From: a virus
IMG/VR virus record: IMGVR_UViG_3300005525_000034
Coordinates: 1-64,000 of that record
DNA length: 64,000 nucleotides
Reading direction: 5' to 3' (one strand)
Position numbers and translations under genes: made by a program. Shown here piece after piece: positions 1 to 39,774 of this stretch (positions are counted from its first letter, which is position 1; the number at the start of each line of letters is the position of its first letter). Under the pieces are notes generated by a model. It ran no database searches. It had not been told where the DNA came from and saw nothing but the letters and a program-made list of their open reading frames with translations.

Positions 1-18
1 CGGAGGAGTGTTTTGATT

Positions 19-1392
19 ATGGGCACACGTGACGGTAGGAGGCCGGCTGCAATGCACGAACCGGACCCCGATCACCGGATAGTGGTGGGCTATGCCCGGG
101 TCTCCAAGAAGCAGGAGGAGCAGGGCATCAGCCTGGAGGGCCAGGTCAACCAGCTGGAGCGCGCTGGCGTCGATCGTGTCATCGCCGAGAAGGGAAGCGC
201 CTCGAGGGGCCGTCGGGCGGGCTGGACGGAGCTGCGGCTGCTGGTGGCCCAGGGCCGGGTCAAGCGGGTGCTGATGAACGACCTATCACGCCTGGCGCGC
301 GATGGCTCGGACATGGACTTTCTGGAGGAGTGCGCAGCCGCCGGCACCGAGGTGCGCGATCTCTACGGGCAGGTGTGGGAGAACCAATCGATCCACGGCC
401 TGGCCTCCAGTGGCATTACCAGCCTGATGAACAGGATTCAGGCCCGCATGATCGGACTGAAGTCGGCCGATGGGATCCGGCGGCGACGAGAGGCAGGTTT
501 CCTGGCTCGAGGGCGCTTGCCCTTCGGCTACAAGGCGGTGAATCATCAGCCAGCGATGGATCCCGAAAGGTGGGAGCAGGCGCGATGGCTGTTCGAGCTG
601 CTTCTGAGCTCTCAGGTGGATCTGACTGGGACGATCAGGGCGCTGCCTGATGACTTTCCCTGGCTGCCGACCCGCGAGGGCCTGCTGAACTGGGCACTGA
701 ACCCGATGCTGCGCGGCGGCATCGCCTACGGGCGCCGAGCGATTGGGGACTGGGAACGGGTGGAGTGGGGGCGGGCACCGCGGCTGATCACCACGGAGGA
801 GTACGACTCAGCCCTGCGGTACTACCTGTCACGCAGAGATGGCAAGTCGCGCCTGCGAAGAACTGGGGAAGCGCACCTGCTGACCAGCCTGCTGAGGTGC
901 GTTGCCTGCGGGAAGAACATGGGCTGGAAAACGAAACGCGAGCCGCATCACGCCGCGCGGTATCAGTGCAAGAACCGTCGCTGCAGCTTCTGCGGGAAAA
1001 CGGTGCGCGAAGACGTGATCCGACAGGAGCTCGCGCGGGTGCTGACAAAGCAGGCGAAGAAAATGGCTGATCTGGCGATGACCGATGCGCCGGTCGAGAT
1101 CCCGCCGGAAGAGGCGAAGCTGCGGGAGCAGCTGCGTCAGCTTGAGGATCTTGAGGCCCAGGGCGTACTGAACCTGCGGAAGGGGATCCTGGCGCTGCGG
1201 GACCAGATCGCGATGATGCGCATGGATCGGATCGTGGACCCCTGGCTGGCGCCCGACTACCAGGACCTGTTCTCGAACGAGAGGGCGTTCCTGCTCACCT
1301 CAGACGAGAACCTTCGCCCGATCCTGCTGAAGTTCGTGAAGCGGGTGGAGTACCGCTTCAGCAGCAAGGCGATCCGCGTGGTGCTGCGCTGA
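19..1392 (+). CDS. Large serine recombinase (phage integrase, XisF-like)
   Basis: This is probably the integrase/excisionase of the element. The resolvase catalytic domain spans roughly residues 20-165 and opens with GYARVSKKQEEQ, whose serine is the expected nucleophile. A recombinase domain follows (about 165-275), then a zinc ribbon with paired cysteines (CVACGK ... CKNRRCSFC, about 290-335) and a short charged helix. Length (about 457 residues) and domain order fit large serine recombinases, including the cyanobacterial fdxN-element protein XisF. A GGAGGAG Shine-Dalgarno lies at 2-8. The ATG at 19 is preferred, but an in-frame TTG at 13 is possible. No attachment site could be recognised, because the left flank is cut by the window edge. 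Confidence 0.93.
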   Translation: MGTRDGRRPAAMHEPDPDHRIVVGYARVSKKQEEQGISLEGQVNQLERAGVDRVIAEKGSASRGRRAGWTELRLLVAQGRVKRVLMNDLSRLARDGSDMDFLEECAAAGTEVRDLYGQVWENQSIHGLASSGITSLMNRIQARMIGLKSADGIRRRREAGFLARGRLPFGYKAVNHQPAMDPERWEQARWLFELLLSSQVDLTGTIRALPDDFPWLPTREGLLNWALNPMLRGGIAYGRRAIGDWERVEWGRAPRLITTEEYDSALRYYLSRRDGKSRLRRTGEAHLLTSLLRCVACGKNMGWKTKREPHHAARYQCKNRRCSFCGKTVREDVIRQELARVLTKQAKKMADLAMTDAPVEIPPEEAKLREQLRQLEDLEAQGVLNLRKGILALRDQIAMMRMDRIVDPWLAPDYQDLFSNERAFLLTSDENLRPILLKFVKRVEYRFSSKAIRVVLR

Positions 1393-2809: not shown

Positions 2810-3114
2810 GGCTGGATGGCTGAGGTGGGATCAGGGGAGCCGCTGCTCTCCCGGGCGAGGGTGTCGCGCAACATCGACTCCCACTCGGATGGGTTCTGAG
2901 CGATCCACTCGCGAGCGAGGTTGCTCCAGTTGTTGGGAGGCGGGAACACGTGGCCGCGGCCCTGTCGCTGGGCGCGATTGTTGGCGACGCGGCGATCAGC
3001 CTCGAGGGCGTTCCAGTAAGTGGTGGGCGAATCGAGGTCCTCGAGGGTCATCAGGCCCTGGAGGGCGAAGCGGGCCAGCAGACGGCCCGGCAGCTCCGTC
3101 GAAAAGAGGGTCAC
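2806..3114 (-). CDS. Hypothetical small phage protein
   Basis: A 102-residue soluble protein (MTLFSTELPGRLLARFALQG), with aromatic residues in NNWSNLAREWIAQNPSEW and a Ser/Pro-rich tail. The family is not recognised. It overlaps the start of the nuclease-like gene downstream and the end of the gene upstream by 4 bases each (ATGA type), so translation of this leftward operon is probably coupled. Confidence 0.6.
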   Translation of the reverse strand: MTLFSTELPGRLLARFALQGLMTLEDLDSPTTYWNALEADRRVANNRAQRQGRGHVFPPPNNWSNLAREWIAQNPSEWESMLRDTLARESSGSPDPTSAIQP

Positions 3115-3557
3115 AGCTTCACTCCGGTCTGGCTGGCGAGCTGACTCAGGTGCCGGAACAGCTCAGATGTCGACATGACGGGCACCGGCTCCGGCTCACA
3201 CGGCACAAGGACACGGCGATGCGCTTCGATCGTGACGAGGGGATGAAATCGATCGGGCTGGCGCAGTCGCTCATCCAGATCAGGGCGGAGGCCCTGCTCA
3301 ACGGCCGGCATGCCGTTGTGGAGTGGATAGAGGTAGACGAGCAGCTGAACGTGAATTGCGAGCTTCTCGCGCGGCTCAGGGTCGAGCAGGCGCTGCTTGG
3401 CCGCATAGGCGATGAGCTGCGGCGTCAGCTGACGTTTCGCAAGGTCTGGGAGGCTGCTCCAGGCGAAGGAAAGGCCGAGCTCGGAAAGGGCCTTGTGATG
3501 CGGGAGCGACTCGATCAGCCCGGCGAGGAGATGGATGAAATCGGGTGCGGTGAGCAT
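3111..3557 (-). CDS. Hypothetical alpha-helical phage protein
   Basis: A 148-residue protein starting MLTAPDFIHLLAGLIESLPH. An ATG at 3557 is preferred over the upstream starts, because residues before it are Arg/His-rich and overlap the initiator C-terminus. Helical content is high, with LAIHVQLLVYLYPLHNG in the centre. No family is recognised. It lies directly downstream of the replication initiator, the slot where phages often keep a helicase loader or a second replication protein, but no P-loop or other motif supports that role. Confidence 0.6.
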   Translation of the reverse strand: MLTAPDFIHLLAGLIESLPHHKALSELGLSFAWSSLPDLAKRQLTPQLIAYAAKQRLLDPEPREKLAIHVQLLVYLYPLHNGMPAVEQGLRPDLDERLRQPDRFHPLVTIEAHRRVLVPCEPEPVPVMSTSELFRHLSQLASQTGVKL

Positions 3558-4696
3558 TGCGACACGGACGATGTGGCGAAGATGGCGATGGCGCGTTCTG
3601 CTGCATCCGACTGCCTGGACGTCGGACGAAGCGCGGGGCCCCGGCCCGCTGGTCGCCGCACCATACAAGATCCTGGATGGTCGGTGCAATCGGTCGCGAG
3701 CTGCTCAGTCGCGAGTCGATCGATCAGGTCGCGGTGTCCATCGAAACCCAGGCTGAGCCAGCCGGAGTCGGCAGCGAGATCGGCGAACGCCACCAGGACG
3801 CCGAGGCTGTTGGCGTAGGCCAGGGCGTTGACGGATCGGGAGGTGAGGGCAGAGCCAGCCGCAGCCCTGTGGCGCTGCTTGCGAAGGCGCCACCAGGCTT
3901 CGAGCTGTACCCGAACGGGCTCGGCGAAATCGGGGAGGGTGGCCGCGGCCCTACTTGGCGCTCTGCGGACCGCCAGGGCGCCTTCAGCGGGCACGCAGGT
4001 ATCAGCACACCCATCGGACGGTTCGACGGCCTTCCTGCGGCTCCTGGATGGCGCTGGCGATGCGTCCTGGTCTGTGGATGTCTGCGGGATCCGGCCTGAA
4101 TCGCTGTTGGCCTGTCCGCCGGTTGATGGGATGGTCCCCCCGTGGGGGATGTCTTCCGAACGAAGTGAGGAAGATAGGGGGTTGTCTTTGGTTTTTGGAT
4201 TTAACTCCTTCTTGTTAGGGGGTCCGTTTGGGGTATCCCCTTTCTGGGGTAGGGGTGACCCATTCGGGGTAGGGGTCAGGCCCTCAACCCCTAGCCCTTT
4301 CGGGGAAGGGGTAGCCCGTTGAGGCCTGGCCTTTTTGGGGGATGTCCCATTTAGGGGAGGGGTTGCCTGAGACGGTTTGGTGTGACTGCGTTTTGAGCCG
4401 GCCCGTTCGGTTCTCACGTGGAACAAACTGGTGCGTCCTGGCCGTTCAATGCGCTTGATCCATCCAGCCTTGGCCAACCAGGTCAGGGCCCGCCGCACGT
4501 CACGGCTGGCCATGTGACATTCGGCCGCGAGACGTTCGACACTGGGGAAGGCTTGGTCGTCCTTTCCGGCGTAGTGCCAGAGCCAGATGTAGACGAAGAG
4601 CCAGCTTTTCCGATCTGCACAGGCCTCCGCCAATTCGATAGGCACCATCGAGAAACGAGTCCGCGAAATGGCTTGGTTCGCTGTTTGCTCCTTCAT
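3515..4696 (-). CDS. Replication initiator with N-terminal winged helix and internal repeats
   Basis: A 393-residue protein. Residues about 15-100 form a winged helix of the replication-protein type: AFPSVERLAAECHMASRDVR, then ALTWLAKAGWIKRI. Residues about 100-200 are low-complexity (Pro/Lys/Gly/Asn) and are encoded by iteron-like GGGG-rich repeats at 4227-4367. The C-terminal part is helical, with LEAWWRLRKQRHRAAAGSAL. The arrangement recalls lambda O, where the N-terminal domain binds iterons within its own gene. The start ATG at 4696 has no clear Shine-Dalgarno. A hairpin (4726-4753) sits in the leader. No ATPase motifs are present, so a separate helicase would be needed. It could instead be a regulator with the same HTH type. 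Confidence 0.65.
   Translation of the reverse strand: MKEQTANQAISRTRFSMVPIELAEACADRKSWLFVYIWLWHYAGKDDQAFPSVERLAAECHMASRDVRRALTWLAKAGWIKRIERPGRTSLFHVRTERAGSKRSHTKPSQATPPLNGTSPKKARPQRATPSPKGLGVEGLTPTPNGSPLPQKGDTPNGPPNKKELNPKTKDNPLSSSLRSEDIPHGGTIPSTGGQANSDSGRIPQTSTDQDASPAPSRSRRKAVEPSDGCADTCVPAEGALAVRRAPSRAAATLPDFAEPVRVQLEAWWRLRKQRHRAAAGSALTSRSVNALAYANSLGVLVAFADLAADSGWLSLGFDGHRDLIDRLATEQLATDCTDHPGSCMVRRPAGRGPALRPTSRQSDAAERAIAIFATSSVSQCSPHPISSISSPG
4181..4367. other. Candidate replication origin: AT-rich stretch plus iteron-like repeats
   Basis: An AT-rich stretch at 4181-4217 in an otherwise GC-rich region is followed by six degenerate direct repeats of the form TTN(0-2)GGGG-N-AGGGGT-N-RCC inside the initiator gene. 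Initiator gene, internal iterons and adjacent AT-rich DNA are the lambda-type origin layout. The function is inferred only. Confidence 0.45.
4227..4367. repeat. Six degenerate GGGG/AGGGGT direct repeats
   Basis: Units start at 4227 (TTTGGGGTATCCCC), 4241 (TTTCTGGGGTAGGGGTGACC), 4263 (TTCGGGGTAGGGGTCAGG), 4298 (TTTCGGGGAAGGGGTAGCCC), 4332 (TTTTTGGGGGATGTCCCA) and 4350 (TTTAGGGGAGGGGTTGCC). Spacing is 14-35 bases. They encode the Pro/Lys/Gly-rich linker of the initiator. Confidence 0.75.
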
Positions 4697-38436: not shown

Positions 38437-39774
38437 TCACTCCTTGGTGATGGTGAGGGCCCGGCGGGAGTTCTCCTGCTGGGCGCGGATCATGCGCGCA
38501 CGGGCCGCGTCCTGGCCGCCGGAATCGGCGGGGATGCCATTGATCGCGCTCAGCAGCGGGTCGGCGCTGTCGCTGCGGCCCATGCCCTGCTCCGCGTAGG
38601 CGTCGAAGGTGGCCGTCACGTAGTCGTCGCTGCGGCCCTCGAAGCGCTCCGGATCGACGCCGACCTTCTCGAGCGAATCGATCATCAGCTCGCGGTTACT
38701 GAGACCATCGAACGTGGGTCGTTCGCCGGTGATGGCCGTGGCGCGATCGATCAGCTCCAGGCGGGCGGTGACCAGGGCGTCGATGTCGAGGTCGTCCGCA
38801 TCGGTGCGGCTGTCGATCTCGAGCTCGAGCGAGTCGAGTCGATCGACGAGGGCATCGAGGCGGCCCAGGTCGCGCTCATGGGCCTCGATGGCGTCATCGC
38901 GCTCGGCGCAGGCCCGGTCGTACATGGCCTTGGGCACCATCTTCCCGCCGCCGTCCTTCTTGGAGACCATGTAGGAGCCGAGATTGGCGGCGCCACCGCC
39001 GTCCATTTCGTCCTCGTCGCACTGTTCCATTTCCTCGTCGTCACTGCCTTCCCGGGCCTCTTCGTCCTCCTCCATTGCCATGGGGGGAGGTGCCTTCTTC
39101 CTGCCCTTGGCGTCGGCCCGAACCTGGGCTGACAGGGCGGAAGCGAGGGCCTCGGTGGCATTGCTGAGCGCTGCCACAGCGGTCATGGAATCCTCCGTTT
39201 GGGGTTGTGGTTGGCCGTCGGCCGGGATGGGATCAACGGCGTAGGCGGAATCCATGTGCAACCGCACCTCAGGGCCTGCACGGCCCTTGCGCACGATCGC
39301 CACGTGGTTTCCTGAGATCTCCCTCTGGACGCCGTCGTATCGCTGGCCGTCGGGGGTGACGCCGGGGGTGGCGTCGAACTTGACCCGATAGCCCACGGAC
39401 ACCTCACGGGCATCACCCCGCTTGATGGCGTCGATGGCCTCCCGGTCAGTGACCGTGACGAAGCCCACCGCGAACGGTGAGCGGTACTCGACCATCGATC
39501 CGGTGTGACCCCGCTGGTACTCCCGGCACGTCTCAGGTGTCAGCAGCTCCGGCGGGTGCTCCAGGGTGACCGGGAGGTTCGCCAGGGAGAGCAGGGCGTC
39601 CTTGCGGGAGACCTCTTCCTCCGGCCGGTACTCGATTGCCTCCTTCCCGTCCTGACGCCGATAGCGCTGCAGTCCGGTGCGCGCGAAGGTGGCATTGATG
39701 CGCAGATAGCCCTCGGGAGTTTCCTCCCAGTCGGACGAGATCTCGGCGCGATCAAAGCGCAGCGCTTCGCTCAT
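38437..39774 (-). CDS. Head maturation protease-scaffold fusion (DUF2213)
   Basis: A 445-residue protein, start ATG 39774. The N-terminal ~190 residues match the DUF2213 protease region: LANLPVTLEHPPELLTPETC, REVSVGYRVKFD, then ISGNHVAIVRKGRAGPEVRL. A very acidic stretch (about 235-260) and a coiled coil (about 290-345) form the scaffold. The end carries FDGLSNRELMIDSLEKVGVD and DDYVTATFDAYAEQG, also typical of DUF2213 proteins. The protease would remove the scaffold during capsid maturation. It is divergently oriented to the XRE gene at 39846. Confidence 0.85.
   Translation of the reverse strand: MSEALRFDRAEISSDWEETPEGYLRINATFARTGLQRYRRQDGKEAIEYRPEEEVSRKDALLSLANLPVTLEHPPELLTPETCREYQRGHTGSMVEYRSPFAVGFVTVTDREAIDAIKRGDAREVSVGYRVKFDATPGVTPDGQRYDGVQREISGNHVAIVRKGRAGPEVRLHMDSAYAVDPIPADGQPQPQTEDSMTAVAALSNATEALASALSAQVRADAKGRKKAPPPMAMEEDEEAREGSDDEEMEQCDEDEMDGGGAANLGSYMVSKKDGGGKMVPKAMYDRACAERDDAIEAHERDLGRLDALVDRLDSLELEIDSRTDADDLDIDALVTARLELIDRATAITGERPTFDGLSNRELMIDSLEKVGVDPERFEGRSDDYVTATFDAYAEQGMGRSDSADPLLSAINGIPADSGGQDAARARMIRAQQENSRRALTITKE

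Follow-up and report, generated by a model that had tools for sequence, protein, structure and literature searches.

The O gene of phage lambda encodes a protein with a winged-helix N-terminal domain, carries iterons just after the codons of that domain, continues into an AT-rich tract, and is followed by a helicase-related gene (PMC7466680, PMC5043065; the anatomy was also taken from record NC_001416). The same layout is found in gp15 of phi80 and in gp18 of P22, where gene 18 is directly followed by the helicase gene 12. The DNA analysed here, called the window, is a stretch of 64,000 nucleotides from a virus of freshwater cyanobacteria (positions 1 to 64,000 of IMG/VR record IMGVR_UViG_3300005525_000034). 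Gene 4696-3515 of the window is in all likelihood a lambda-O-type initiator hosting a candidate cognate origin. To judge from sequence comparisons, replication of the viral DNA very probably starts inside the gene of the protein recognising the start site, according to the lambda plan. The appropriate class for the locus is that of lambda-O-type initiators and origins, here in a cyanophage; elements of this kind are already known. What is new is the host group, the exchange of a DNA-binding domain together with its iterons, and the uncharacterised protein of 148 aa encoded where lambda has its helicase loader. Searches of the open-access literature retrieved no description of an origin for cyanophages of this group. 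The locus gives one cyanophage lineage an origin candidate whose position is defined and which can be tested, and would extend the lambda origin-in-initiator logic to cyanobacterial viruses, with recognisably lambda-like iterons.

The initiator gene and its repeat array

The initiator protein matches Pfam HTH_36 (E 1.4e-9) and PHROG families of replication initiation or O-like proteins (E 1.3e-13 to 4e-6), namely PHROGs 391, 678, 345 and 8540, labelled 'replication initiation O-like'. In the AF2 model a winged helix (pLDDT mostly >90) and a helical C-terminal domain (pLDDT ~86-98) are separated by a Pro/Lys/Gly-rich linker (residues ~100-250), predicted to be disordered. Foldseek searches with the model returned generic winged helices alone, with no match below E 0.001, and PDB searches by sequence and structure found nothing beyond them. 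Features of the locus are collected in Table 1.

Table 1. Position of the putative initiator, of the elements within its gene, and of the adjoining reading frame (window coordinates)
Feature	Position	Strand	Description and basis
O-like replication initiator gene	3515..4696	-	ORF, 393 aa; Pfam HTH_36; PHROG; relatives
Winged-helix domain, residues ~12-98, proposed iteron-binding	4403..4663	-	AF2; hhalign
Iteron 1	4343..4364	-	AACCCCTCCCCTAAATGGG; matrix score 16.5
Iteron 1b, partial	4326..4347	-	CATCCCCCAAAAAGG; matrix score 13.4
Iteron 2	4291..4312	-	ACCCCTTCCCCGAAAGGG; matrix score 19.0
Iteron 3	4255..4276	-	ACCCCTACCCCGAATGGG; matrix score 12.8
Iteron 4	4235..4256	-	ACCCCTACCCCAGAAAGGGG; matrix score 23.1
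Iteron 5, partial/weak	4219..4240	-	GATACCCCAAACGG; matrix score 2.6
AT-rich tract, proposed unwinding element	4182..4221	-	62% AT; directly 3' of last repeat
Two short inverted repeats, tentative	4135..4174	-	TCTTCC..GGAAGA; TCCCCCACGGGGGGA; 3' of AT tract
Helical C-terminal domain, residues ~256-339, proposed partner-binding	3680..3931	-	AF2; identity in L235-L237
148-aa ORF, lambda P position, candidate helicase loader	3111..3557	-	overlaps initiator 3' end

The first-pass annotation had located six repeats in the part of the initiator gene that follows the winged helix. Their placement was confirmed by a matrix trained independently on 55 sites from 13 cyanophage relatives, window and lambda being excluded, which sets six copies of a gapped palindrome (four full, two partial), about ACCCCTNCCCCNAAANGGGG, at 4364-4219, past the winged-helix codons. 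Successive iterons are spaced by 17, 35, 36, 20 and 16 bp. Five of the six best matrix sites in the 64 kb fall in this array, and the sum of the four top scores of the gene was reached by none of 300 codon shuffles. A lone high-scoring match (14.0) lies outside the initiator gene, at window position 39190 (-). The gene hosts 11 pairs of similar 18-mers. Codon shuffles contain 2.4 such pairs on average and dinucleotide shuffles 0.9, and in neither set was the observed number reached (0/500 each). The evidence obtained within the window alone is only moderate, because 1179-bp blocks with 11-32 pairs occur elsewhere in the window. A generic repeat finder run over the window listed no copy of the array, because the copies are degenerate.

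The AT-rich stretch noticed beside the repeats is there as well: the tract contrasts with the 37% AT of the gene, of which it represents the most AT-rich 40-50 nt. Taken singly, the inverted repeats found farther on are not significant (p~0.15). Several relatives and lambdoid O genes have hairpins at a comparable offset. GC skew, proposed in the first-pass annotation as a check of the origin, shows no switch at 4.2 kb.

Likeness to lambda O and other phage initiators

The logic of lambda O, in which the initiator gene itself contains an origin-like array, had been recognised from the start, and is sustained by the position of the array, which is kept in relatives. Initiator and repeats had both been described as unrelated to those of lambda, and neither description holds. 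PHROGs 391, 678 and 345 are matched by lambda O as well. HHalign aligned the winged helix with a profile of lambda-type O N-terminal domains (probability 83%, E 9e-6) and with the HTH_36-type O protein of PhiR49 (98%). The former match needed a multi-sequence profile of lambda-type N-domains, since query A3 found no match to lambda O taken as a single sequence. As to the repeats, the cyanophage matrix, when run over the lambda O gene, ranks the four annotated iterons 1-4 (scores 11.9, 9.8, 9.3 and 2.6). The next match scores -3.0, and no codon shuffle out of 300 did as well. Lambda iterons are gapped A-centred palindromes (TCCCTCAAAACGAGGGA), as are the units of the window array. The window gene thus shares with lambda O an homologous N-terminal domain, an in-gene array after the DNA-binding domain, A-centred palindromes, and an AT tract on the C-terminal side.

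The two systems differ in other respects. Lambda O matches the Pfam model Phage_rep_O (PF04492) at 5.7e-36, whereas the window initiator is an HTH_36 protein and leaves that model unmatched, as does its homologue from cyanophage KBS-S-2A. The C-terminal domain has no recognisable match to the lambda O C-terminus, and weak matches or none to the C-termini of PAJU2 and lambda together. Unlike those of lambda, the window iterons have CCCC/GGGG arms and an extra ACCCCT lead, and the protein in the P slot is not lambda P by profile.

The iteron arms of phi80 gp15 and P22 gp18 also differ from those of the window. In phi80 the top-ranked matrix matches are annotated binding sites, and the sites (TTCCCGAAAACGGGAA) are partly found by the cyanophage matrix. 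The arrays of P22, PAJU2 and others, which have different arms, were not found by it. A strong match (CCCCTTACCCCCTAAAGGGGGA) lies at gene position 477 of P22 gene 18 (L227), at the end of an AT-rich stretch and off the repeat array of that gene.

The closest relative in a named phage, by tblastn, is CPKG_00028 of cyanophage KBS-S-2A (HQ634187), 33.7% identical over residues 7-98. The same ACCCCT[A/C]CCCC..AAAAGG array and an AT tract follow its winged helix, and its C-terminal domain is different and shorter. The protein is annotated as hypothetical, and the KBS-S-2A genome paper makes no mention of replication or helicase.

Conservation of the array and exchange of its proposed cognate domain

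Relatives of the initiator were retrieved in 53 viral loci and in one Synechococcaceae MAG contig by a protein-based search in which the motif was not used. An alignment query was needed, as single-protein searches identified the same virus only among viral contigs, and nothing among genome contigs. In turn, when the DNA motif ACCCCTNCCCCNAAAGG alone was run against 2.9 million viral contigs, at least 80 stretches matched. At least 17 contigs (13 distinct genes), two of which are the same virus as the window, encode a homologous initiator whose gene has the motif immediately past the winged-helix codons, and they include, among the matches listed, every contig with at least two strict motif copies. 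Two or more copies are present in 27 of the 45 distinct relatives scored. In some relatives the score for the exact motif is zero, and the linkers that were read host other repeats at the same place, such as CCCCCCAGGGGG, GGTACCAAAAGGTACC and CAGGTCAAAAACGACC; these alternative arrays were picked out by eye, with no blind test. In the 13 genes compared the AT-rich maximum is found directly 3' of the array, with the exception of L028, in which two further repeat copies lie between array and AT tract. The layout has very probably been kept, according to these comparisons, across dozens of related viruses.

The first-pass annotation had regarded the loss or scrambling of the repeats in homologous genes as evidence against an origin. 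The position of the array is kept, and its sequence varies by subgroup, in one case along with the DNA-binding domain. The case is that of L235-L237, close relatives found via the neighbouring 148-aa gene. They are 63-68% identical to the window in the C-terminal domain and 64-65% in the next gene, but only 20-22% in the N-terminal domain. The array in their linker, around GACGGGAAAACCGTC, is unrelated to that of the window, and an AT-rich tract follows it here too. As far as the alignments tell, L235-L237 have had winged helix and repeats replaced as one unit. DNA-binding domain and array have changed jointly, as predicted for cognate sites; the replacement is comparative evidence that N-terminal domain and iterons would constitute a matched specificity unit. 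Comparison among relatives strongly supports the reading of the array as a putative origin inside the initiator gene. The natural pairs, window and L235-L237, provide a ready specificity experiment.

Since the repeats are translated, they could be a mere Pro/Lys/Gly protein linker, their likeness at the DNA level being a by-product of a repeated peptide and codon bias. The linker is indeed rich in these residues and predicted to be disordered, and the dual-use coding suggested earlier was borne out; codon shuffles of some relatives with a highly repetitive peptide, moreover, keep many motif matches. However, the A-tract of successive copies occurs in all three codon phases in L049, L011, L017 and L026, and the CCCC blocks of the window likewise vary, the block of iteron 4 being read in a codon phase unlike that of iterons 2 and 3. 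The copies therefore encode different peptides, and what is conserved is DNA, not peptide. The linker hypothesis is also opposed by the shuffling results reported above for the window gene (0/300 and 0/500), and by the change of the array along with the winged helix in L235-L237, and is highly improbable.

Alternatively, the G/C runs might fold into G-quadruplexes or hairpins, and these would be the functional element. GGGG runs on the + strand could form a quadruplex, but long G runs are missing from relatives in which the layout is the same, as L139/L140 (GGTACCAAAAGGTACC), L142 (CAGGTCAAAAACGACC) and L235 (GACGGGAAAACCGTC). For this reason the G-quadruplex was rejected as a conserved feature, and structures of this type are exceedingly improbable as the functional element.

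Proposed mechanism and the downstream gene

The following proposal leans on the account given for lambda (PMC7466680). The winged-helix protein would bind, probably as dimers, the iterons spelled by its own linker codons, the bound units being the A-centred palindromes, and the array at 4219-4364 would be the active origin of the virus. The complex of protein and array would strain and melt the adjacent AT-rich tract (4221-4182). The C-terminal domain would then recruit the host DnaB helicase, probably via the 148-aa product of the next gene.

The 148-aa ORF is kept directly downstream of the initiator in L127, L026, L107, L098, L095 and L235-L237. Its product is helical in AF2 (pLDDT 82), matches no Pfam or PHROG family, and gave no convincing structure match in PDB or BFVD, the best BFVD hit being an uncharacterised phage protein (E 0.008). 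It may tentatively be assigned to a new phage loader family, unrelated to lambda P, DnaC/DnaI and DciA, which would bring the cyanobacterial DnaB to the origin. The assignment is made because of gene position only, and is on balance doubtful.

In L125 a gene encoding a DnaB-like replicative helicase (L125:5298-6740) directly follows the initiator homologue, an order that resembles gene 18 followed by the helicase gene 12 in P22. In contrast to P22, no DnaB helicase could be recognised in the window record itself, and profiles of DnaB, Pol A, DnaC/IstB, lambda P and DciA found none of these in the record. The independent contig L002 (10107-12593) joins both ends of the 70829-bp record (G000 68343-70829) with 100% identity, which suggests that the genome of the virus is complete, circular or permuted, and about 70.8 kb long. 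Because the ends are joined, the absence of helicase and loader carries some weight.

The array might serve instead as an autoregulation site, either as a roadblock or to control the gene downstream. Autoregulation is conceivable for a winged-helix protein that binds within its own gene, and the next gene starts within the 3' end of the initiator ORF. Autoregulation leaves unexplained the fixed place of the AT-rich tract, the membership in O-like PHROGs and the DnaB neighbour in L125, and as a substitute for the origin is very unlikely. The two functions are not in conflict, and a candidate origin may also be a site of autoregulation.

Other genes were also noticed. By eye, ParB-like and terminase-like genes adjoin a serine integrase (window 13-1392). 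Farther downstream of the initiator, two more ORFs, 2809-2090 (-) and 3114-2806 (-), are kept in several relatives (L119, L110, L107, L127 and L130; L098, L095 and L026).
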